A DNA stretch of 64,000 bases from Treponema sp. Lineage in GTDB: Bacteria > Spirochaetota > Spirochaetia > Treponematales > Treponemataceae. Position numbers and translations under genes: made by a program. Below are positions 44,696-58,351 of this stretch, piece by piece. Under the pieces are notes generated by a model. It searched no databases. It was not told the DNA's origin and saw nothing but the letters and a program-made list of their open reading frames with translations. The stretch's first letter is position 1. Every line of letters begins with the position of its first letter. The DNA lies in contig JAILON010000156.1 of assembly GCA_024690865.1 (NCBI GenBank), positions 1-64,000 of the forward strand. Direction: 5' to 3'.

Positions 44696-45979
44696 ATGGC
44701 CAATTACAAGTTCGAGACTTTGCAGCTTCACGTAGGGCAGGAGAGCGCGGATCCTGCGACCGATGCCCGCGCGGTACCGATTTACCAGACGACATCCTAT
44801 GTCTTCCACAACAGCAAGCATGCCGCTGACCGCTTTGGCCTTGCCGATGCGGGGAATATCTATGGAAGGCTCACGAATTCCACGCAGGACGTGCTGGAGA
44901 AGCGTCTTGCTGCCTTGGAAGGCGGGTCCGCTGCCCTCGCGCTCGCTTCCGGCGCCGCCGCCATCACCTATACGATAGAGGCCCTCGCGGCGAACGGCGG
45001 CCACATCGTCGCCCAGAAGACGATTTACGGCGGAAGCTACAACCTGTTGGCCCACACCCTGCCGCAGTACGGAATCACGACGACCTTCGTGGACGCGCAC
45101 AACTTGGCCGAGGTCGAGGGCGCGATCAAGGACAACACGAGGGCGATTTACCTGGAGACCCTGGGCAACCCCAACTCCGACATCCCGGACATCGACGCGA
45201 TTGCGCAGATTGCCCACAAGCACGGCCTGCCCCTCGTCATCGACAACACCTTCGGCACGCCCTACCTCATCCGCCCGATTGAGCACGGAGCTGACATCGT
45301 CGTGCACTCTGCGACCAAGTTCATCGGCGGCCACGGAACGACGCTCGGCGGCATCATCGTGGAAAGTGGCAAATTCGACTGGAAGAAGAGCGGCAAGTAT
45401 CCGGGCATCGCCGCCCCTAACCCAAGCTACCACGGGGTATCCTTTTACGATGCGGTCGGCCCCGCTGCGTTCGTCACCTACATCCGCGCGATTTTGCTCC
45501 GCGACACGGGCGCGACGATTTCTCCCTTCAATGCGTTCCTCTTGCTGCAGGGAGTGGAGACCCTCTCGCTCAGGCTGGACAGGCACGCGGAGAACACCAA
45601 GAAGGTCGTCGAGTACCTGAGCAAGCACCCGCAGGTCGCCAAGGTGAACCATCCGTCGCTTCCCAACCACCCCGACCACGCCTTGTACCAGAAGTACTTC
45701 CCCAACGGCGGAGCTTCAATCTTCACCTTTGAGATTAAGGGCGGCAAGGATGCGGCTTGGAAGTTCATCGACAACCTCAAGATTTTCAGCCTGCTCGCGA
45801 ACGTCGCGGACGTGAAGAGCCTGGTCATTCACCCGGCGACGACGACCCACAGTCAGCTGAACGACGAGGAGCTCGCCGACCAGGGAATCACGCAGAGCAC
45901 GATTCGCCTTTCAATCGGAACAGAGCACATCGACGACATCATCGCCGACCTGGAGAACGGCTTCAAGGCGGCAAAATAA
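44696..45979 (+). CDS. metY: O-acetylhomoserine sulfhydrylase
   Basis: A 427-residue PLP enzyme of the Cys/Met metabolism family that replaces the acetyl group of O-acetylhomoserine with sulfide (homocysteine) or methanethiol (methionine). The PLP lysine is K208 in [13 protein letters not shown], and [20 protein letters not shown] plus the C-terminal [18 protein letters not shown] are typical. The length and the large loop fit MetY rather than MetB or MetC. It is the first gene of the nitrogenase-like operon, which fits capture of methanethiol released by a methylthio-alkane reductase. GGCGGAGG precedes ATG. Confidence 0.95.
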
Positions 45980-46019: not shown

Positions 46020-46958
46020 ATGGCAGACATCAAACAGAGTTCATTGGAATTGATTGGAAAGACCCCCCTCCTGCAGCTGAACGGCTACAGCAAGAAGGCG
46101 GGAGTTACCGGGGCGACGATTCTTGCGAAGCTTGAGTACCTGAACCCGGCGGGAAGCGTCAAGGACAGGATTGCCCTTGCGATGATTGAGGACGCGGAGG
46201 CCAAGGGCTTGCTCAAACCCGGGGCTACTATAATAGAGCCGACTTCCGGCAATACGGGGATAGGGCTTGCCGCCGTCGCGGCCGCCAAGGGCTACCGTGC
46301 CATCCTGACCCTGCCCGAGACGATGAGCGTGGAGCGGCGCAACCTGCTCAAGGCTTACGGTGCCGAGATTGTCCTGACCGAGGGCGCGAAGGGCATGAAG
46401 GGAGCGATTGCCAAGGCGGAGGAGCTTCACGCCGCCACGCCGGGCAGCTTTATCCCCGGACAGTTCGTCAATCCCGCCAATCCCGCTGCCCACAAGAAGA
46501 CGACCGGGCCGGAAATCTGGGAGCAGACCGACGGCAAGGTGGATTTCTTTATCGCGGGTGTCGGCACGGGTGGAACGCTGACCGGCGTGGGCGAGTACCT
46601 GAAGGAGAAGAATCCGAACGTCAAGATTATCGCGGTTGAGCCTGCGACCAGCCCCGTCCTTTCCAAGGGAACTGCGGGCGCGCACAAGATTCAGGGAATC
46701 GGTGCGGGATTCGTCCCCGACGTTCTGAACACCAAGGTCTACGATGAGATTATCGCGATTGAGAACGATGATGCCTTTACCGAAGGCCGCCTGTTTGCCC
46801 AGAGCGAGGGGATCCTCGTCGGCATCTCTTCCGGTGCCGCGCTCAAGGCCGCCCGTATCATCGCGGAACGCCCCGAGAACAAGGGCAAGAACATCGTCGT
46901 CCTGCTGCCCGATTCCGGAGACAGGTATCTGAGCACCCCGCTGTTCAGCGGAAACTAA
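46020..46958 (+). CDS. cysK: Cysteine synthase (O-acetylserine sulfhydrylase)
   Basis: A 312-residue fold-type II PLP enzyme that makes cysteine from O-acetylserine and sulfide. The PLP lysine K48 lies in [11 protein letters not shown], the substrate loop in [18 protein letters not shown] and the phosphate-binding loop in [10 protein letters not shown]. Family length is normal. It starts 40 nt after metY with a TAGGAG site. A second paralogue lies inside the same operon at 49246-50247. Confidence 0.93.
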
Positions 46959-47049: not shown

Positions 47050-47925
47050 GTGGCAAAAGCGTTTAAGGACATAGCGAGCAATCACCCTTGTTTTGCGAGG
47101 GGACCGGCACAGGCGGGCAGGATACACCTTCCTGTCTGCCCCGGATGCAACATAGCCTGCCGCTTCTGCGAGCGGAGCCTGAACACGACGGAAAACCGCC
47201 CCGGTGTAACCGGCAGGGTAATCAGCCCGGAAGAGAGCGTGGGTATCGTCCGCAAGGCACTGGAGATAAGCCCGGACATAAAGGTCTGCGGCATCGCGGG
47301 GCCGGGGGACACGCTTGCGAGCGACAATGCGATACGGACATTCCGCCTGGTGGGGCAGGACTTCCCCCAGCTCATCAAGTGCATGAGCACAAACGGCCTC
47401 CTGCTTGCGGAGCGGGCAGATGAGGTCATCGCCGCCGGGGTGGACACGCTTACCGTCACGGTGAATGCCGTCCGCCCGGAGATTGAGGCTCAGCTGAACG
47501 ATTACATCATCTGGCAGGGGAGGAAGATAGAGGGCGTAGAGGGGGCACGGATTCTCATAGAGAACCAGCTTGCGGGCATACGGAAGATTGCTGCGGCGGG
47601 CATAACCGTCAAGGTGAACACGGTGCTGGTGCCCCGCATAAACGGCGGACATATCGAGGAGATTGCCCGCACCGTGGCGGAAGCAGGGGCAGCCCGCTAC
47701 AACATCATCCCCCTGATTCCGACGGCAAAGCTGAAGGACGAGCCTGCACCGACCTGTGCCGAGATACACGCGGCGCGGGCAGCGGCGGGCAAGTACATCG
47801 AGCTTTTCCTGCACTGCAACCACTGCCGTGCGGATGCCGTGGGCGTGCCGGGACGGACGGAATATTCCCGCCTCCTGTATGCGGGATTCGGCAGCAGCGT
47901 CAAGGAGAACTTCTCGCATGGCTGA
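47050..47925 (+). CDS. NifB-like radical SAM protein (MarB-like)
   Basis: A 291-residue radical SAM enzyme of the NifB class, which fuses Fe-S clusters into the carbide-containing precursor of nitrogenase-type cofactors. The SAM cluster motif C-x3-C-x2-C (C33, C37, C40) stands in HLPVCPGCNIACRFCER, and SRPGVTG-like ENRPGVTG and CGIAGPGDTLA follow, as in NifB. It lacks the fused NifX-like C-terminal domain of classical NifB; that domain is encoded by the next gene. The start is GTG 47050 behind AAAAGGAG. Assigned by neighbours to maturation of the NifDK-like proteins below. Confidence 0.88.
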   Translation: MAKAFKDIASNHPCFARGPAQAGRIHLPVCPGCNIACRFCERSLNTTENRPGVTGRVISPEESVGIVRKALEISPDIKVCGIAGPGDTLASDNAIRTFRLVGQDFPQLIKCMSTNGLLLAERADEVIAAGVDTLTVTVNAVRPEIEAQLNDYIIWQGRKIEGVEGARILIENQLAGIRKIAAAGITVKVNTVLVPRINGGHIEEIARTVAEAGAARYNIIPLIPTAKLKDEPAPTCAEIHAARAAAGKYIELFLHCNHCRADAVGVPGRTEYSRLLYAGFGSSVKENFSHG

Positions 47926-48292
47926 CGAAGCGCACGCAACATACCGGGTCGCCGTGGCAAGTTCCGACGGGGAGACGGTGAACCAGCACTACGGCAGGGC
48001 GGAGAAGTTCTTCATATACGTCGTGGACGATGATGAGGGCTACGATGTGTGCGAGGAACGGGATGTTTCTCCCGTGTGCATGGGAGGGAGCCACGTCAAG
48101 TCTGCAATGGACGAGAGCGTCAGGCGTTTTGCCGACTGCCGCTATGTGGTGGCGAGCAGGATTGGAGCCGGTGCGGCGCAGGCGCTGACCGCAGCCGGAA
48201 TTGTCGGGATGGAACTGCCCGGCAGTATTGAAGAAGCTATTGTGAAGGTCTGGAAGTATAACCGCGTTCAGGGCCTGTTTAACATAGAATAA
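47918..48292 (+). CDS. NifX/NifB-C-terminal-like cofactor-binding protein
   Basis: A 124-residue protein of the dinitrogenase iron-molybdenum cofactor family (NifX/NafY type), which binds and carries cofactor precursors. It shows VAVASSDGETVNQHYGRAEKFFIY, where the His is the usual cluster-contact position, and the C-terminal GMELPGSIEEAIVKVW. ATG 47918 overlaps the NifB-like gene by 8 bp, so the two make up a split NifB. The ORF-track start at 47756 runs through the upstream gene. Confidence 0.88.
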   Translation: MADEAHATYRVAVASSDGETVNQHYGRAEKFFIYVVDDDEGYDVCEERDVSPVCMGGSHVKSAMDESVRRFADCRYVVASRIGAGAAQALTAAGIVGMELPGSIEEAIVKVWKYNRVQGLFNIE

Positions 48293-48303
48293 AACTTGTG
48301 TAA

Positions 48304-49164
<861 letters not shown>

Positions 49165-49245: not shown

Positions 49246-50247
49246 ATGAGTGGTGGTATACATACATCGATTGCGGAGCTGGTCGGGAAGACTCCGCTGC
49301 TTGAGCTGGTGAACTATGAGAAGAAGCATGGTCTGAACGCCCGCATTCTGGTAAAGCTTGAGTATTTCAATCCCAACCAGAGCGTCAAGGACAGGATCGC
49401 GCTCGCCATGGTGGAGGATGCCGAAAAGAAGGGCTTCCTTAAGCCGGGCTATACCATTGTGGAGACGACGAGCGGAAATACGGGTATAGGGCTTGCCGCG
49501 ATAGCCGCGAGCAAGGGCTATAAGTTCCGCGTCTACATACAGGATCAGGTGAGCGAGGAGCGCTTCAAGGTCATACAGGCCCTCGGCGGGAAGACGATAA
49601 AGCTGTCCGAGGAACCCGTCGTCGCGAAAGCCCTTCAGGAAACGAACGGGGACTTCGTTGCGGCCATAAAGGCGTTGAAAGAACAGGTCCTCAACAAGGA
49701 AAAGGATATATTCTTTGTTGACCAGTGCTCCAACCCGGCGAATCCCGCTGTGCACGAGGCGACGACCGGACCTGAGATCTGGGAGGACACGGACGGGAAG
49801 GTCGATATCCTCGTGGCAAACGTCGGGACCGGCGGTACGGTTTCCGGTACGGGAAAGTATCTGAAAAGCAAGAATCCCGGCGTCAAGGTCGTGGCCATCC
49901 AGCCCGGCAAGAATTCGCTCCCGAGCGAGAGCAATCCCAAGCCGGAGGAGATAACCGGCGTGCACCCCTTCGAGGGGATTCCCAAGGAGCGCGTTCCTTC
50001 GACGATGAACCTGGGCATCTACGACGAGAAGCTTGAGGTGGAAACCATAGAGGCGTACCGGGCCGCGCGGGAAGCCGCGAAGACCGACGGCATATTGGTT
50101 GGCACGTCATCCGGCGCCGCCATCCATGCGGCGACGGTACTTGCCCAATGGCCGGAGAACAAGGGAAAGACAATCGTGGCCATCCTGCCTGATACGGGAT
50201 TGCGCTACCTTTCAACAAACCTGTTCAACGAATCATACCAAGGATAG
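49246..50247 (+). CDS. Second cysteine synthase-like PLP enzyme
   Basis: A 333-residue fold-type II PLP protein with K48 in [29 protein letters not shown] and GTGGTVSGTGKYL. It differs from the 46020 paralogue in ASN-type positions (ETTSGNTG, IQDQVSEERFKV) and is longer. Because it is placed between the NifH- and NifD-like genes, it may use a dedicated sulfur donor or make a modified cysteine; that is inference. TAGGAG lies 10 nt before ATG 49246. Confidence 0.88.
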   Translation: MSGGIHTSIAELVGKTPLLELVNYEKKHGLNARILVKLEYFNPNQSVKDRIALAMVEDAEKKGFLKPGYTIVETTSGNTGIGLAAIAASKGYKFRVYIQDQVSEERFKVIQALGGKTIKLSEEPVVAKALQETNGDFVAAIKALKEQVLNKEKDIFFVDQCSNPANPAVHEATTGPEIWEDTDGKVDILVANVGTGGTVSGTGKYLKSKNPGVKVVAIQPGKNSLPSESNPKPEEITGVHPFEGIPKERVPSTMNLGIYDEKLEVETIEAYRAAREAAKTDGILVGTSSGAAIHAATVLAQWPENKGKTIVAILPDTGLRYLSTNLFNESYQG

Positions 50248-50261
50248 AAAAGGAGAGAATT

Positions 50262-51743
50262 GTGGCTGTGAATTTGAATTCTTCCAATGTTGCGACCCGC
50301 GAGAACAGGATCGGGTCCATAACGGGCTATATCGGCAATCTGAAGGACCTGGCGGAAAAGTCCGAATGCGGGACGCTCAAGGGCTGCTCCCGCTGCTTCT
50401 CCCAGTCCAGCTCCTGCCTTTCCATGTGTGCGCTGGGCCAGCTGTCGGCCATCCGCGACATCGCGATAGTCCACCACGGGCCCGCGGGATGCTCCGTGGC
50501 GGCCGCCGGGTCATACTACCTGGACAAGGTAATGGCGAAGAAGCGCGGTGTCACGACCAATACCGTCTACGTCGGCACCGACATGAACGAGAACGATACG
50601 ATCTTCGGTTCCACGGCGCAGCTGCGGAAAATCATCCTTGAGGTGAACAAGCGCTACTCGCCTAAGGCAATCTTTGTCGCCAGCTCCTGTGCGACGGGAA
50701 TCATCGGCGAGGACATAGACAGCGTCGTTGATGACGTGAAGTCGGAGATAGACATTCCGGTCATCGCCGTCCACTGCGAGGGATTCAAGTCCCGCATCTG
50801 GGCAACGGGATTCGACATTTCCGACCATGCGGTGCTGTCCGGCATCGTGCAGCCGCCCAAGCAGAAGCGCAACACGATAAACTTCAAGAACTTCTACGAG
50901 AGCGCACGGCCTGAGATCATCGAGATGTTCAAGAACTTCGACCTGGAGCCGATTTTCTTGTACTGCAACTCGACGGTCGAGGAGCTGTCCCACATCTCCG
51001 AGTCCCTTGCAACGACCTGCATCTGCGGTACCCTGGGGAACTACCTGGGAAACGGCCTTGAGGAAAAGTACGGCGTGCCCTACGTGCGCAGCATCAACCA
51101 GTGCGGCATCGTCGGATTTGAAACATGGCTCCGTGAAATCGGGAAGGTCACGGGACGCAGCGACAAGATAGAGAAGTACATTGCGGAGCAGCGGGCCATC
51201 TACATCCCCCAGATTGAGGAAATCAAGAAGGAGCTCAAGGGCCTCCGCGCCGTCATCGGCATGGGACCGGGCTACACCTTCGAGGTAAGCCGCGTCCTGA
51301 ACGAGCTTGGCATCGAGGTCGTGTGGGCGCTCGCCTGGCACTACGACAAGAAGTACGAGAACGGCGACGTGCCTCCTTCGATGAAGTACCTCCTGGAGAA
51401 CAACATCAACTTCGAGGCGAGCGTTTCCGACCAGCAGAACTACGAGGTGATGAACATACTGCACAAGTACAAGCCGGACCTCTACCTGTCTCGCCACCCC
51501 GGTTCCACCGTGTGGGCAATCAAGAACGGAACGAGCGCGGTCTATGTCGCCGACGAGTACATGATTTTCGGCTACAAGCATACGCTTGAGTTTGCCAAGT
51601 CGATTCTGGACAGCATCCGCAACAGGAGCTTCGAGCAGAACCTTGCCAAGCGGGTCAAGCTGCCCTACACGGACTGGTGGTACCAGCAGAATATCGACAC
51701 GTTCTTTGAGGACGAAAAGAAAAAGTCCGCCGCGGCGGTTTGA
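50262..51743 (+). CDS. NifD-like catalytic subunit (MarD-like)
   Basis: A 493-residue homologue of the nitrogenase alpha subunit. P-cluster cysteines equivalent to NifD C62, C88 and C154 appear at C52, C77 (HHGPAGC) and C143 (ASSCATGIIGED). The cofactor ligand Cys275 of NifD matches C255 in CGTLGNYLGNGLEEKYG, aligned without gaps. The N2-reducing residues Gln191 and His195 are replaced by Trp180 and Phe184 (EGFKSRIWATGFD), and the His442 position appears to be non-His (VADEYMIFGYKH). So it should hold a P-cluster and a NifB-derived cofactor, but not reduce N2. Neighbours suggest methylthio-alkane reduction. The start is GTG behind AAGGAGAG. Confidence 0.88.
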   Translation: MAVNLNSSNVATRENRIGSITGYIGNLKDLAEKSECGTLKGCSRCFSQSSSCLSMCALGQLSAIRDIAIVHHGPAGCSVAAAGSYYLDKVMAKKRGVTTNTVYVGTDMNENDTIFGSTAQLRKIILEVNKRYSPKAIFVASSCATGIIGEDIDSVVDDVKSEIDIPVIAVHCEGFKSRIWATGFDISDHAVLSGIVQPPKQKRNTINFKNFYESARPEIIEMFKNFDLEPIFLYCNSTVEELSHISESLATTCICGTLGNYLGNGLEEKYGVPYVRSINQCGIVGFETWLREIGKVTGRSDKIEKYIAEQRAIYIPQIEEIKKELKGLRAVIGMGPGYTFEVSRVLNELGIEVVWALAWHYDKKYENGDVPPSMKYLLENNINFEASVSDQQNYEVMNILHKYKPDLYLSRHPGSTVWAIKNGTSAVYVADEYMIFGYKHTLEFAKSILDSIRNRSFEQNLAKRVKLPYTDWWYQQNIDTFFEDEKKKSAAAV

Positions 51744-51760: not shown

Positions 51761-53065
51761 ATGGCGAAACTACTTGACAAACAGCGATATAAATGTGCCC
51801 TTGCCGCAATGCAGACCGTGCAGGCCATCACGAGGGCCATTCCGGTTCTGCATGCGGGACCGGGATGTGCGCAGAAGCTTGCCAACGGTATTGGAAGCTC
51901 CGGCTACTTCTCCCCGAACATCTTTCCCTGCACGAGCATCAACGAGAAGGATGTCGTCTTCGGCGGAACCAAGAAGCTTGCGAGCACGATAGACAACGCG
52001 CTCAAGGTGATAGACGCCGACCTCTACGTCGTGCTGACCGGATGCATTCCTGAAATCGTGGGCGACGACACCGGAGAGGTCGTGAGCCAGTTCGCGGATG
52101 CGGAAAAGCCCGTCATCTATGCGAGCACGGCGGGCTTCAAGGGAAACAACTACAAGGGACACGAGCAGGTCGTCGATGCGATAATCAGCCAGTACCTCAA
52201 GAAGGTACCGGACAGTGAGAAAGTGCCGGGCCTTGTGAACATCTGGGCGGACGTTCCTTATCAGGACCAGTTCTGGCTGGGAAACCTGCGCGAGCTGGAG
52301 AAGCTCGTCGCGGAGCTGGGCCTGACGCCCAACACGATTTTCGGATATGACCGGGGCTTGAAGAACATCGACCTTGTTCCCAAGGCCCAGTTCAACCTGC
52401 TCGTTTCCCCCTGGGTCGGACTCAAGAACGTGCAGAAGATGGAAAAGAAGCTGGGCATTCCCTACCTGCACTATCCGGTGCTTCCCGTCGGAGCTACGGA
52501 GACCAGCAAGTTCCTCCGCGCCGTCGGCAAGTTTGCGAAAGTCCCCTCTGAGAAGGTCGAGGCCGTCATCACGGAGCACGAGAAGTACTTCTACTACCTC
52601 ATCGAACGCTATGCCGACCTTTTCCTGGAGAACCGCGTCATCAACAAGCAGTTCTCGGTCGTTGCGGACGCGCAGTATGCCCTTGGCTTTACGAAGTTCC
52701 TCGTGAACGACTTGGGCCTCTTCCCCGCGAAGCAGTTCGTCACCGACGACACGCCAAAGGAGTATCAGGAGGCAATCGCGGCGGAGTTCAAGAAGCTCAA
52801 CTACGGCATACAGGCGGAAGTGGAGTTCACCGGCGACAGCTACCTGATACATAATGGCATCAAGGAGCACGACTATCACGGATACCCCCTGGTGCTGGGA
52901 AGCTACTTTGACAAGGAGGTTACCGAAGATCTGAAGGGCAACTTCCTGAACGTCGCCTGGCCTTTCCAGAACAGGGTCGTCATGGACAGCTTCTATGCGG
53001 GCTATACGGGAGGCATACGGCTCATAGAGGACATCTATACCGTCGCCGTACAGCGCTTCAACTAG
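51761..53065 (+). CDS. NifK-like subunit (MarK-like)
   Basis: A 434-residue homologue of the nitrogenase beta subunit, expected to pair with the NifD-like protein and share the P-cluster. The three P-cluster cysteines are present: C36 in HAGPGC, C57 in FPCTSINEKDVVFGG and C95 in LTGCIPEIVGDD. The N-terminal extension of Azotobacter NifK is missing. A GGGAATGAG site precedes ATG 51761, 17 nt after the upstream stop, consistent with coupled translation. Confidence 0.9.
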   Translation: MAKLLDKQRYKCALAAMQTVQAITRAIPVLHAGPGCAQKLANGIGSSGYFSPNIFPCTSINEKDVVFGGTKKLASTIDNALKVIDADLYVVLTGCIPEIVGDDTGEVVSQFADAEKPVIYASTAGFKGNNYKGHEQVVDAIISQYLKKVPDSEKVPGLVNIWADVPYQDQFWLGNLRELEKLVAELGLTPNTIFGYDRGLKNIDLVPKAQFNLLVSPWVGLKNVQKMEKKLGIPYLHYPVLPVGATETSKFLRAVGKFAKVPSEKVEAVITEHEKYFYYLIERYADLFLENRVINKQFSVVADAQYALGFTKFLVNDLGLFPAKQFVTDDTPKEYQEAIAAEFKKLNYGIQAEVEFTGDSYLIHNGIKEHDYHGYPLVLGSYFDKEVTEDLKGNFLNVAWPFQNRVVMDSFYAGYTGGIRLIEDIYTVAVQRFN

Positions 53066-53430: not shown

Positions 53431-53453
53431 TTTTCATTTCTATGGAGGAAACT

Positions 53454-54275
53454 ATGAAAAAGACTGTGATCATCAACAAACTGCTGCTTGCTTTTTCCGC
53501 GGTCGTGCTTGCCGCAGGACTTTTCGGCTGCAAGAAAGCAGGAAATGATTCAAAGGGTGTCAAGACGATTATCGTCGGTACGGGAACGGCGTACAATCCC
53601 TACTGCTATCTTGACGAGAACGGAAATCTCGTCGGCTACGAGAAGGACGTGCTGGATGCCATAGACGAGCTTTTGCCCCAGTACACGTTCAAGTACGAGA
53701 CCTTTGACTTCGCAAACATCCTGCTCGCCCTGAGCGGCGGAAAGATAGACATCGGCGCACACCAGTACGAGGAAAGCGAGGAGCGGCGCAAGAACTACCT
53801 GTTCAGCACGGAGTCCTACAACTCCTTCATCACCCACATCATCGTCCTCAAGGACAGGACGGACATCAATGACTTCGAGGACTTGCCCGGCAAGACGGTC
53901 CACCTGAGCATCGGCTCAAACACTGCGGCTACGGTTTTGAAATACAACGAGGACGCCTCCCCCGACAAGCAGATAAACACCTTCCTTGCGAAGTCCCTGC
54001 AGTCGGAGCAGATTGTTGCCGGACTGAAGAACGGGCAGTTTGACGCGACCTTCTTTCCGCTGCTTGACTTGGACAAGTACAACCGCGAGTACGGAAACAT
54101 CCTCAAGGCCGTCGGCAAGCCGCTCAACTCCTCGTTCTCCTACCTCATCTTCCAGAAGGGAAACACGGAGCTGCAGGAAGCCGTGGACGGGGCCTTGCGT
54201 CAGCTGAAAGCTTCCGGAAAACTCTCGGAGCTGGCCATAAAGGACCTGGGCCGCGACACGACCCAGGGCGAGTAA
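53454..54275 (+). CDS. Polar amino acid ABC transporter, binding lipoprotein
   Basis: A 273-residue SBP_bac_3 family substrate-binding lipoprotein. The lipobox is AAGLFGC after a classic signal (MKKTVIINKLLLAFSAVVL). The mature part shows NPYCYLDENGNLVGYEKDVL, FDFANILLALSGGKIDIGAH and the C-terminal QLKASGKLSELAIKDLG typical of cystine/polar amino acid binders. The start MKKTVII follows GGAGG (53444). Its place after the nitrogenase-like operon suggests an organosulfur amino acid or cystine as ligand, comparable to TcyJK systems; that is inference. Confidence 0.92.
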   Translation: MKKTVIINKLLLAFSAVVLAAGLFGCKKAGNDSKGVKTIIVGTGTAYNPYCYLDENGNLVGYEKDVLDAIDELLPQYTFKYETFDFANILLALSGGKIDIGAHQYEESEERRKNYLFSTESYNSFITHIIVLKDRTDINDFEDLPGKTVHLSIGSNTAATVLKYNEDASPDKQINTFLAKSLQSEQIVAGLKNGQFDATFFPLLDLDKYNREYGNILKAVGKPLNSSFSYLIFQKGNTELQEAVDGALRQLKASGKLSELAIKDLGRDTTQGE

Positions 54276-54298
54276 ACGCGGACAAAGGGTGACGGTAT

Positions 54299-54991
54299 AT
54301 GGGTGAGTTTTTTTCCTGGCAGCGGGTCTTTGAGAATTTTCCGCGCCTTGTAGCCAAGCTTCCGATAACGTTTGAAATCGTACTGGTTGCCTTTGCCGTC
54401 GGGCTTACGCTCGGCATCATACTCTCGTTTGTCGAGCTGAAGCGGATTCCCGTCTTGACGCAGCTTCTGGACGTGTTCATCTCGTTCGAGCGCGGTACCC
54501 CCCTGCTCGTACAGATGCTCGTCATGTATTACGGGCTGCCGCTCGTCCTGGAGGGGCTGTTCGGAATCGACACCCGGAGCTGGGAAAAGCTCACCTTCGT
54601 CATCATAACCTATACGCTCAACCAGGCCGCTTTCTTGAGCCAGGATTTCCGGGGGGCCATCCTGTCCATCCCGGCCGGCCAGAAGGAGGCGGCCCTGGCC
54701 TGCGGGCTGACCCCGCTTCAGACGGCGGTCCGCATAGTGCTGCCGCAGTCCGTCCGCATCGCCGTTCCCAGCATCGGGCTTGAACTCATCGGGCTGTTCC
54801 AGAACACCTCGCTCGTGTCCATGGTTGGCGTCATAGACATACTGGGTCGTGCGCAGTCGCTCGGAAACCTGACGAGCCATACCTTTGAAAGCTACCTGAT
54901 CGTGGCGTTTGTCTTTGTCGTCATCAGCCTCCTGCTCACGGCCCTCAACAAGGCAATCAATGCCCGCCTCAAATCGGAGGTCATAAAATGA
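54299..54991 (+). CDS. Amino acid ABC transporter permease 1
   Basis: A 230-residue HisM-type permease with about five membrane helices (ITFEIVLVAFAVGLTLGIIL) and the EAA coupling loop EAALACGLTPLQTAVRIVLPQ. It should pair with the permease encoded next; the two genes overlap by 4 bp (ATGA). It starts 23 nt after the binding-protein gene. Confidence 0.93.
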   Translation: MGEFFSWQRVFENFPRLVAKLPITFEIVLVAFAVGLTLGIILSFVELKRIPVLTQLLDVFISFERGTPLLVQMLVMYYGLPLVLEGLFGIDTRSWEKLTFVIITYTLNQAAFLSQDFRGAILSIPAGQKEAALACGLTPLQTAVRIVLPQSVRIAVPSIGLELIGLFQNTSLVSMVGVIDILGRAQSLGNLTSHTFESYLIVAFVFVVISLLLTALNKAINARLKSEVIK

Positions 54992-55662
54992 GTTTCAACC
55001 TTTCATACCTGTGGGACTGCCTTGTATCCGGAGCCCATTATATCCACATATCCCTGCTGCTTGCAATCGTTCCCCTTGCGGTCGGAACGGTGTTCGGAAC
55101 GCTCATAGCCCTGTCGCGTATTTTCCATGTGCGCTTCGTGGCCCGCTTCTTTGACATCTTTATTCCCATATACAACGGGATCCCCGTAATCGTCACCCTG
55201 TTCATCTACAACCTGATCTATTTGATTTACTGCAAGCCGTCGACGGGCGGCATCATGTACGTGGCCTTGTTCACCTTCTGCCTGGGCAGCACCATGCGGC
55301 TTGCGGAAACGATACGAGGGGCGTTCCTCTCCGTACCCAAGGGCCAGTACGAGGCATGCTATTCCGCAGGGCTTACGGTGTTCCAGTCCCTGCGCCGGGT
55401 GATAATCCCGCAGGTCATTCCTGCGGCGATACCCCCCTTCACGAACATGACCGTGGGTGCGATAAAGAATTCTTCGATCGTCCTTGCGATAGGCATAACG
55501 GATGTCCTAAACGGGGCGACGATGCCGTGCGCCAACACCTACAGCTTTTTGGAAGGCTATGTTGCCGCGGCAATCATATACTGGCTGCTGAACCTTGTGG
55601 CGGAGAATCTGCTGGGGCTTGCCGAAAAGCGCCTGCTGAAATATAAGGGAGGAAAAATTTGA
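54988..55662 (+). CDS. Amino acid ABC transporter permease 2
   Basis: A 224-residue HisQ-type permease with the coupling loop [20 protein letters not shown] and about five helices ([20 protein letters not shown]). It overlaps both neighbours by 4 bp, so the three inner-membrane and ATPase genes are translationally coupled. Two different permeases with one binding protein is the TcyLM-like arrangement. Confidence 0.93.
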
Positions 55663-56414
55663 TGATCAAGATAGAGAACGTGAAAAAATCATTCGGGCAC
55701 CTGAAGGTGCTGCAGGACGTGTCGCTGAGCGTCAACAGCGGCGACGTGGTCGTCATACTGGGGCCGAGCGGTTCGGGGAAGACGACCCTGCTCCGTTCCA
55801 TCAATTTTTTGGAGAAGGCCGACGCCGGGCGCCTTACGATTGGAAGCACGAGCGTGGATCTGCATTCTGCCCGCAAGAAAGAGATCCTTGAGGTGCGGCG
55901 CAAGACCGCGATGGTCTTCCAGAACTACAACCTCTTCGCAAACAAGACCGCGCTCGAGAACGTGACGGAAGGCCTTGTCACCGCGCGGAAAGTCCCCAAG
56001 GCGCAGGCCGTGGAGCGTGCCCTTGCCGAACTCAAGAAGGTGGGGCTTTCCGACAAGGCGGACTACTATCCCAGCCAGCTTTCCGGCGGCCAGCAGCAGC
56101 GCGTTGGAATCGCACGGGCAGTCGCTCTGGATGCGGAGGTAATCCTCTTTGACGAGCCCACGTCCGCCCTGGACCCGGAACTGGTCGGGGAGACCCTGCA
56201 GATTATCAAGAACGTCGCCAAGGAGGGCCACACGATGATAGTCGTGACCCACGAGATGTCCTTCGCGGAGGAGGCCGCCGACAAGGTCGTGTTCATGGAC
56301 GGGGGCTTCATCGTGGAGGAGGGGACTCCCAAGGAGATTTTCTACAGTCCCAAGGAGGAGCGCACCAAGAGATTCCTGCACCGCATCCTGCCCGTCGGCG
56401 AGTACATCATATAA
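55659..56414 (+). CDS. Amino acid ABC transporter ATP-binding protein
   Basis: A 251-residue ABC ATPase with Walker [11 protein letters not shown], signature [14 protein letters not shown], Walker [15 protein letters not shown] and switch His VVTHEM, all intact. The family is the polar amino acid transporter type (HisP/GlnQ/TcyN). It completes the importer encoded from 53454. Confidence 0.95.
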
Positions 56415-56428
56415 GCAAAGGAGGGGGT

Positions 56429-57805
56429 ATGGAAAAAAGTCCTGGGCGGCTGGGAGTGGACATGACGCGGGGCGCTATCCTGCCGCAGATTGTCCGCTTC
56501 GCCCTGCCCCTGCTTGCCGGGAACATCTTCCAGCAGCTGTACAACACGACCGACTGCCTCATCGTCGGCCGCTTCCTGGGACGGGATGCCCTTGCCGCAG
56601 TCGGCTCCACGGGCCAGCTCGTCTTTGGTGTCATCGGATTTTTCAACGGGCTTGCGACGGGTGCGCAGGTCATCATCTCGCAGAGCTTCGGTTCAAAAGA
56701 CAAGGCTGCGCTCAAGTCTGCCATACATACGGCCGTGCTGTTCTCGGTTTTCATAAGCGTCTTCCTCAGCATATTCGGTATCCTCATATCCGGCTTCATG
56801 CTGCGCCTTATCCACGTGCCCCCTGCCGTCCTTGAGCTGGCCAGCTCCTACCTGCGGATTTTCTTTGCGGGAATCGCATTCCTGGTACTGTACAACATCG
56901 GTTCAGGAATCCTCCGCGCACTGGGAGACTCCAGGCATCCCCTGTATTTCCTTGTGTTCAGTTCAATCGTAAACATCATCCTTGACCTCATTTTCGTGAT
57001 TGTCTTGAAACTGGGCATCCGGGGAGCGGCATTCGCCACGGTCATCTCGGAGCTTGTTTCCATAATCCCCGTCTTCTTCGTGCTGCTGACGGCGGAAGAA
57101 GACGTCCGGATCCGCCTGAAAGATTTGCGGATAAGCGTTTCCTTCCTTGCGAAGGTCGTGAAAATAGGTCTGCCCGGCGCAATCACATCATCGCTCATTG
57201 CCTTTTCCAACACCTTCATGCAGCGCTACGTGAATTCCTTTGGGGAGGCATGCATAGCGGGATTTGCCGTGTTCTCGCGCTTCGACAACTTCATGATCAT
57301 GCCCATGATAAGCATCTCCTTTTCCGTCACGACTTTCGTCAGCCAGAACTTCGGCGCGAACGAACTGTGCAGGGTACGGCGCGGGGTACGGATTTCCCTG
57401 CTTCTGGACATCTGTTTGATCGGGGCCATCTCAAGCCTGTCCTTCGCATTCGCCCGCCTTTTCACCATGCTTTTCATAAGCGATGCGGAATCCGTCCGCT
57501 ACGGCTCGCTGTTCATACGCTTCGCGACGCCCTTCTACGTCCTGTGCGCGACGACGATGCTGTACAGCCAGGCCCTGCACGGGCTTGGGGAATCCATTAT
57601 CCCTACGGCGATAACTTTCGGCGGCTTTGTCATCCTGCGGCAGACCTATCTTTTTGTGAGTACGCATCTTTCCGGCCGTTTCACATTCGTAGCCCTCGCG
57701 TACCCAATCGTCTGGATTTTCACCGCGCTCGTGATGGTCCTGTACTACAGGCGGACGCTGGAACGGCACAGGCGTGGCCAGCCTGTCTGCAAGTCCGTGG
57801 ATTGA
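56429..57805 (+). CDS. MATE family efflux transporter
   Basis: A 458-residue multidrug and toxin extrusion family exporter with twelve membrane helices in two halves; the first half opens with RFALPLLAGNIFQQLYNTTD and the second with IGLPGAITSSLIAFSNTFMQ. It starts 14 nt after the ABC ATPase gene behind AAAGGAGGGGG, so it is probably on the same transcript. A substrate cannot be assigned; export of a by-product of the sulfur pathway is only a thought. Its last codons (CKSVD, stop) form copy one of a downstream tandem array. Confidence 0.93.
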   Translation: MEKSPGRLGVDMTRGAILPQIVRFALPLLAGNIFQQLYNTTDCLIVGRFLGRDALAAVGSTGQLVFGVIGFFNGLATGAQVIISQSFGSKDKAALKSAIHTAVLFSVFISVFLSIFGILISGFMLRLIHVPPAVLELASSYLRIFFAGIAFLVLYNIGSGILRALGDSRHPLYFLVFSSIVNIILDLIFVIVLKLGIRGAAFATVISELVSIIPVFFVLLTAEEDVRIRLKDLRISVSFLAKVVKIGLPGAITSSLIAFSNTFMQRYVNSFGEACIAGFAVFSRFDNFMIMPMISISFSVTTFVSQNFGANELCRVRRGVRISLLLDICLIGAISSLSFAFARLFTMLFISDAESVRYGSLFIRFATPFYVLCATTMLYSQALHGLGESIIPTAITFGGFVILRQTYLFVSTHLSGRFTFVALAYPIVWIFTALVMVLYYRRTLERHRRGQPVCKSVD

Positions 57806-58045
57806 CTGTACACAAGTCCGTGGATTGACTATACACAAGTCCGTGGATTGACTGTACACAAGTCTGTGGACTGCCTATACACAAGTCCGTGGACTGCCTA
57901 TACACAAGTCCGTGGATTGACTGTACACAAGTCCGTGGACTGCCTATACACACAAGTCTGTGGATTGACTGTACACAAGTCCGTGGACTGCCTGTACAAC
58001 AAGTCCGTGGACTGCCTGTACACAAGTCCGTGGATAGGCAGTCAC
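57790..58045. repeat. 23-bp tandem array, 11 copies, starting in the MATE stop codon
   Basis: CAAGTCCGTGGATTGACTGTACA recurs at 57790, 57813, 57836, 57859, 57882, 57905, 57928, 57953, 57976, 58000 and 58023. The spacing is 23 bp with two or three one- or two-base slips. GTCCGTGGAC is a small dyad in several copies. The first copy encodes the last residues and the TGA of the MATE gene. There are no unique spacers, so it is not a CRISPR. Confidence 0.92.
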
Positions 58046-58255
58046 GCTCCAACATCCTCTTCAGATCGCGTATCCTTCTCTCGTGGTTACCCAAGGGCTT
58101 CTCCAACTTGGCGACATACCTGTTGATGTCCTCGCTTCCAGACGTTGCCTCTTCGCCCGCCTTTGTACTTTCTTCGTGTTGCCGGTCGCCGTCTCCGCGT
58201 CATCTGCCTCACGGGTTTCCTGTCCAGATTCTCCCGCCCGAAGCAGTTTCTTCAT
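58046..58255 (-). pseudogene. Possible frameshifted small coiled-coil gene
   Basis: On the minus strand an ORF starts at ATG 58255 (MKKLLRAGESGQETREADDA) after AGAGGAC. Near KKVQRR a -1 or +2 shift would join it to a frame reading EDINRYVAKLEKPLGNHERR and IRDLKRMLERD before it runs into the 23-bp array. Both halves look protein-like, the joint is broken, and the array has replaced the end. The call is tentative; no family is recognised. Confidence 0.3.
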
Positions 58256-58351
58256 GTTATTTTGTCCTCTGTTATTTATAAATAGAAACCATTGCAATTA
58301 GCATTGGTACATATCAATTTTCTTCGGCCAATTAGAATATAGCGGAATTGC

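Follow-up and report, generated by a model that had tools for sequence, protein, structure and literature searches.

Known nitrogenase-like systems of sulfur metabolism

The closest described system is methylthio-alkane reductase (MAR), the MarBHDK system of Rhodospirillum rubrum (R. rubrum; PDB 9fmg, 9d9u), which cleaves carbon-sulfur bonds and so scavenges sulfur. In its catalytic subunit (RrMarD), Trp195 and Phe199 stand for Gln191 and His195 of nitrogenase (Lago-Maciel 2025, PMC12552129). Cys270 and His429 bind the [Fe8S9C] cluster, His429 being located on a MarD-specific loop I, and the pair Arg428-His429 has been described as a possible hallmark of the MAR family (PMC12552129). His194 and His375 lie near the belt sulfide S2B; they were described in R. 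rubrum and not proposed as family-defining. Specificity has been ascribed mainly to wider channels, not to hydrophobicity, and MAR does not reduce N2 (PMC12552129). RrMarD His194 is thought to contact the substrate site.

Related genes have been described in other anaerobes. MarHDK-like genes of Clostridia were tied to methyl-sulfur metabolism and called IV-A (PMC10418091), and N2 fixation was reported for NfaDK of Endomicrobium proavitum, which is without a His442 equivalent and without NifEN. Group IV nifDK genes adjoining a cysteine synthase gene in a termite-gut spirochaete were mentioned as possibly sulfur-related (PMC13067680). A connection between MAR and the rumen was not found in the literature searched.

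A MarD-like gene cluster in Treponema

The gene analyzed here lies in a 64,000-nucleotide stretch of DNA from a rumen/gut Treponema sp. (the window) and encodes a MarD-like subunit. Its cluster has the order cysK-marB-nifX-marH-cysK-marD-marK, with metY ahead and a cystine-type ABC transporter after it:

44696..45979, plus strand: metY, O-acetylhomoserine sulfhydrylase (TIGR01326, 634 bits, above cut-off)
46020..46958, plus strand: cysK, cysteine synthase A (TIGR01139, 453 bits, above cut-off)
47050..47925, plus strand: marB, NifB-type radical SAM protein without NifX domain (TIGR01290, 6e-72 over the radical-SAM part)
47918..48292, plus strand: NifX/NifB-C-terminal-type cluster-binding protein (C-terminal part of TIGR01290, TIGR02663)
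48316..49164, plus strand: marH-like gene, NifH-type reductase with Cys97 and Cys132 for a [4Fe-4S] cluster (TIGR01287, 461 bits, above cut-off)
49246..50247, plus strand: divergent gene of the cysK type, located between marH and marD (TIGR01139 at 309 bits, under the cut-off of 351; nearest in PDB to cysteine synthases)
50262..51743, plus strand: marD-like gene, catalytic alpha subunit, 493 aa, GTG start
51761..53065, plus strand: marK-like gene, 434 aa, with P-cluster Cys12, Cys36 and Cys95 (phmmer to R. rubrum MarK, 2.6e-110)
53442..56414, plus strand: amino-acid/cystine-type ABC transporter with substrate-binding protein, two permeases and ATPase (PRK11260 and PRK11264 best, below cut-off)

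The marD-like open reading frame (50262-51743) is preceded by AAGGAG ahead of its GTG start and was judged real. By phmmer its product matches RrMarD (9fmg) at 1.2e-88 and NifD at 4.9e-33. An AlphaFold2 model of the protein (mean pLDDT 88.9) has 9fmg_A as its top Foldseek match (6.4e-43, TM 0.87/0.92), NifD scoring about 1e-24. Both by sequence and by fold, R. rubrum MAR is the nearest solved relative, with 35% identity between the window D subunit and the D subunit of this one characterized MAR. The curated NCBIfam cut-offs for nitrogenase are far from being reached (160 bits against 486 for TIGR01862 and 137 against 654 for TIGR01282).

The marB product contains the motifs HPC, CxxxCxxC, ENRPG, AGPGD and CxxCRADAVG. 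In the window, NifB is encoded by two genes, one for the radical-SAM part and one of the NifX type, which overlap by 8 bases (47050-48292), and NifX-like genes recur next to additional DK pairs in relatives. A gap of 376 bases separates marK from the ABC transporter, which is a probable uptake partner. Further downstream, past a MATE gene, a short coding-like motif is repeated in several frames at 57720-58281 ('SPRTCVQSIHGL' / 'VHKSVDCLYT'); it looks like a tandem DNA repeat, not a gene.

Active-site and cluster-ligand residues

The original prediction had placed Trp180 and Phe184 of the window protein at NifD Gln191 and His195. Segment EGFKSRIWATGFD aligns without gaps with EGFRGVSQSLGHH of S. 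fredii (Sinorhizobium fredii) NifD and with EGYKGVSQSAGHH of C. pasteurianum (Clostridium pasteurianum) NifD (HMMER); in the same comparison, CEGFKSRIWATGFD faces CEGFRGVSQSLGHH of S. fredii and CEGYKGVSQSAGHH of C. pasteurianum. Trp180 therefore corresponds to Gln191 and Phe184 to His195, as had been proposed. No Gln/His pair occurs at 180/184 in these alignments, and the fold match to MAR agrees with this. The Trp/Phe replacement is already published for MAR and the observation as originally stated is therefore not new; the new element is a gut branch that is large and divergent and is linked with the synthesis of cysteine. The residues concerned are:

50415..50417, plus strand: Cys52, P-cluster ligand 1 (NifD Cys62), by alignment
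50490..50492, plus strand: Cys77, P-cluster ligand 2 (NifD Cys88), by alignment
50688..50690, plus strand: Cys143, P-cluster ligand 3 (NifD Cys154), by alignment
50796..50813, plus strand: Ile179-Trp180-Ala-Thr-Gly-Phe184, matching RrMarD His194, Trp195 and Phe199 (NifD Gln191, His195), by alignment and PMC12552129
51024..51026, plus strand: Cys255, cofactor ligand (RrMarD Cys270, NifD Cys275), by alignment; invariant among aligned homologues
51339..51341, plus strand: His360 (RrMarD His375, near belt sulfide S2B), by alignment; invariant in window-type sequences
51492..51497, plus strand: Arg411-His412 of loop I (RrMarD Arg428-His429), predicted to contact a belt sulfide and to provide the axial ligand of the cluster, by alignment

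The cofactor Cys (C255, equivalent to Cys275) and all six P-cluster Cys that had been assigned to the two subunits were recovered by alignment (C52, C77 and C143 in D; C12, C36 and C95 in K), the K-subunit positions each being kept in 152-153 of 154 aligned K homologues, with gaps in the remainder. W180, C255, H360 and H412 have no exception among 86 aligned window-type sequences. A MarD-type subunit that keeps its P-cluster and carbide-cofactor ligands and has Trp/Phe where nitrogenase has the pair needed for N2 reduction, as originally put forward, agrees with the cryo-EM structure of MAR (PMC12552129) and with the NifB motifs of the linked radical-SAM gene. As to a cluster cavity, checked by fold only, the predicted fold is that of MarD.

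Two of the earlier claims stand in part. The site of His442 is indeed replaced, its column being occupied by A430, but a ligand in loop I had been overlooked: H412, preceded by R411, aligns with the MAR ligand His429. Loss of the axial ligand was rejected on this account, and the alignment places the putative axial His in loop I, relocated and not missing. The proposed hydrophobic pocket looks more hydrophobic than that of nitrogenase and, at position 194, also than that of RrMarD, but Q60, H360 and R411 are retained and the pocket is therefore not purely hydrophobic. A preference for thioethers arising from this hydrophobicity, also put forward earlier, is at most a supposition, the R. rubrum work giving more weight to channel width.

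The window system and R. rubrum MarBHDK have in common the six P-cluster Cys, the equivalents of Cys270, Arg428-His429, Trp195, Phe199, Gln74 and His375, the overall fold, linked NifB-type and NifH-type genes and the lack of NifEN. They differ in that the window protein belongs to a sister subclade, has Ile179 at RrMarD His194 and Gly59 at Cys73, is shorter in the region between C45 and F46, and is encoded together with a separate NifX gene and two cysK-type genes. The fold, the P-cluster Cys and the cofactor Cys275 are shared with Mo-nitrogenase NifDK, from which the window protein differs by the absence of Val70, Gln191, His195 and His442.

The presence of every cofactor and P-cluster Cys would also fit an N2-fixing Group IV nitrogenase of the kind claimed for E. 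proavitum NfaDK, since E. proavitum reportedly fixes N2 without a His442 equivalent or NifEN and the Clostridial MarHDK-like genes carry the IV-A label. Like the window, these Group IV-A systems (E. proavitum, Heliophilum, type I MGC clusters) comprise NifEN-less HDK sets with conserved cluster Cys, and the Clostridial genes are likewise associated with sulfur genes. However, nitrogenase Gln191, His195 and Val70 are all replaced in the window protein, MAR shares its residues at these sites and is inactive in N2 reduction (PMC12552129), NifEN was not found and the neighbourhood is one of sulfur metabolism, so that N2 fixation appears very improbable. A bona fide nitrogenase was rejected on residues, absent NifEN and profile scores.

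Least probable of all, with hardly any weight left to it, is an enzyme of the isethionate reductase (Isr) type. IsrBHDK of Rhodobacter capsulatus is the nearest other characterized Group IV sulfur enzyme and, like the window system, a nitrogenase-like HDK set predicted or known to serve sulfur assimilation by C-S cleavage (PMC11423573). Unlike the window protein, which has all three, IsrD is without the P-cluster and cofactor Cys equivalent to Cys62, Cys154 and Cys275, and its radical-SAM partner IsrB is unrelated and not NifB-like, whereas the window MarB is (PMC11423573). An Isr identity of the window D subunit was rejected as contradicted by this Cys pattern.

Survey of D homologues

D homologues were taken from 80 genome-scan loci, from 296 Spirochaetota and from 399 genomes of the phylum to which a Lachnospiraceae carrier belongs, together with named NifD/NifE references and a T. 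saccharophilum plasmid, and were made non-redundant at 95% (n=118). The comparison of the marker positions over these homologues, which the original prediction had suggested, bears out their association: Trp, Phe, the loop-I Arg-His and His375 co-occur in 75 of the 118 sequences, which exceeds chance, and one further homologue has Trp/Phe with Arg-Ala instead of Arg-His. Among these 76 Trp/Phe sequences, the position of RrMarD His194 is occupied by Ile (60), Val (9) or Thr (3) in 72 and by His in 4. Judged from the alignment, it is at position 194 that the window clade departs most clearly from the characterized R. rubrum enzyme. The exchange of His194 for Ile in the window suggests a changed substrate range.

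In the tree, the Trp/Phe sequences and RrMarD form one clade of 44 rows (support 100/99), which splits into two sister subclades containing RrMarD (99/96) and the window (98/98), respectively; the window-type clade itself has a support of 100/100. Within the MAR clade, the window protein stands out as divergent: one pocket residue is altered, the operon is coupled to cysK, and the distribution in the gut is wide.

In a separate group (25/118), Trp is replaced by Cys and His375 by Thr, and loop I is four residues shorter and without Arg-His. The second DK pair of the window genome (L002 1429-2874, G000:C91) belongs to this type; its D subunit retains the cofactor Cys and every P-cluster Cys, with Cys in place of Trp195, Thr in place of His375 and the shorter loop I. 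In the Cys type and in a related Asn-His type, a conserved His ('THVLD'/'HILD') lies two residues before the position of nitrogenase His442 and could be an alternative axial ligand. In a third type, from Bacillota (L137, L138, L140, L152, L153, L154), position 195 is occupied by Trp, Gln, Ser or Met and position 199 by Tyr, and loop I contains His but not Arg ('GH..GN'); this type possibly represents the Nfa/IV-A group. An IsrD-like protein in a spirochaete of the same order (L102 9382-10797, G212) is without the cofactor Cys and the equivalent of Cys66 and has Pro at Cys154. Internal TAG/TAA stops in some relatives were considered and rejected: the reading frames extend to C-termini of the usual kind, and what looked like a stop is the terminator met by the alignment. 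A pattern-based scan of viral contigs confirmed no MarD relatives.

Gene neighbourhood and distribution

In 73 of the 79 relatives for which flanking sequence exists, a cysK-like gene lies immediately 5' of marD. The neighbours in 80 relatives include cysK, PatB C-S lyase, MetY, NifS and regulators of the CymR/IscR and LysR types, and the transporters near the cluster are of the SsuA/TauC and cystine types. That the coupling is to cysK, and not to metY alone, is a hint that methanethiol may not be the product.

Two DK pairs and one NifB (marB) were found in the window genome, which is 91% complete with 7.7% contamination, and consequently no NifEN is present among the genes found there. Sulfite reductase was not detected in this genome either, although 11 of 14 control genomes were positive. 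Such absences are weakened by the incompleteness of the assembly.

Relatives with 83-93% identity occur in gut Treponema, Lachnospiraceae, Ruminococcus and Butyrivibrio, many of them rumen or gut MAGs. The carriers at this level of identity include the isolates Treponema sp. C6A8, Lachnospiraceae bacterium 3-1, Butyrivibrio hungatei NK4A153 and Ruminococcaceae KHP2, for which MAG misbinning is no explanation. Treponema and Bacillota D sequences are interleaved in the tree, which is read as transfer between phyla; the mar operons have apparently moved in this way.

The 382-kb plasmid pTS2 of T. saccharophilum (L159) carries one marB/nifX/nifH set and, after it, two DK pairs that differ from each other and are separated by an ABC transporter; a type I-C CRISPR-Cas locus adjoins. 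Several further genomes have three D types.

Proposed function

The window system is predicted to be an L-cluster C-S reductase for sulfur scavenging, with a probability of roughly 0.8. From the computed ligand positions, fold, clade, gene linkage and undetected sulfite reductase we infer the identity of the cluster and the C-S chemistry. MarB would make the [Fe8S9C] L-cluster, which the NifX-like protein may carry. In MarD, Cys255 and the loop-I His412 would bind this cluster, and Arg411 would sit next to a belt sulfide; the cluster would contain neither homocitrate nor Mo, and NifEN would not be needed. MarH is expected to deliver electrons in an ATP-driven manner by way of a P-cluster held by three Cys per subunit. 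Trp180 and His360 would line the substrate site, and Arg411 and Gln60 would also belong to the active site. There, an organosulfur compound, which the adjoining ABC transporter probably imports, would undergo reductive cleavage of a C-S bond, and the released thiol or sulfide would be passed on to MetY and the two CysK-type enzymes.

Which compound is cleaved can be read in two ways. In the first, the window encodes a canonical MAR with the substrates of R. rubrum (2-methylthioethanol, dimethyl sulfide, ethyl methyl sulfide), which feeds methanethiol to MetY and gives off ethylene, methane or ethane. The identical ligands and hallmark residues, the nearby metY and the common clade with RrMarD are in line with this. 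It is nevertheless rather unlikely in view of the separate subclade, the 35% identity, the exchanges of His194 for Ile and Cys73 for Gly and the cysK-type gene directly 5' of marD in nearly all relatives; moreover, related genomes contain several DK types accompanied by different transporters, which suggests that substrates are divided among them.

In the second, a reductase of the same chemistry acts on another substrate and frees sulfide or a different thiol, from which CysK makes cysteine. Its chances come close to even. Two cysK-type genes in the cluster, the lack of a detected sulfite reductase as sulfide source, cystine- and SsuA/TauC-type transporters close by and the altered pocket residue 194 argue for it; CysK enzymes, however, can also take other nucleophiles, and metY and PatB are linked as well. 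Given the CysK linkage and the loss of His194, a substrate or product differing from those of R. rubrum is plausible.

A more far-reaching proposal, made tentatively and with the odds somewhat against it, regards the window subclade (Ile/Val at 194, cysK-linked) as a functionally distinct C-S reductase of gut anaerobes that yields sulfide or thiol for cysteine. It would belong to a larger set of MarDK-like paralogues which share a MarB/MarH core, divide organosulfur substrates among themselves and use at least three designs of the axial-ligand loop for the same cluster.

Significance

Near-identical MAR-type operons extend over rumen and gut Treponema, Lachnospiraceae, Ruminococcus and Butyrivibrio, here in a lineage without detectable sulfite reductase. 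If methylated sulfides are cleaved there, gut bacteria could make methane, ethane or ethylene without methanogens and could control the supply of methanethiol or sulfide. The finding also makes it more pressing to ask whether the Group IV-A nitrogenase reported for E. proavitum really fixes N2 and shares this active site. Finally, the variation at position 194 and in the axial-His loop offers a natural set for learning how the scaffold, not the cluster, sets N2 versus C-S reactivity.
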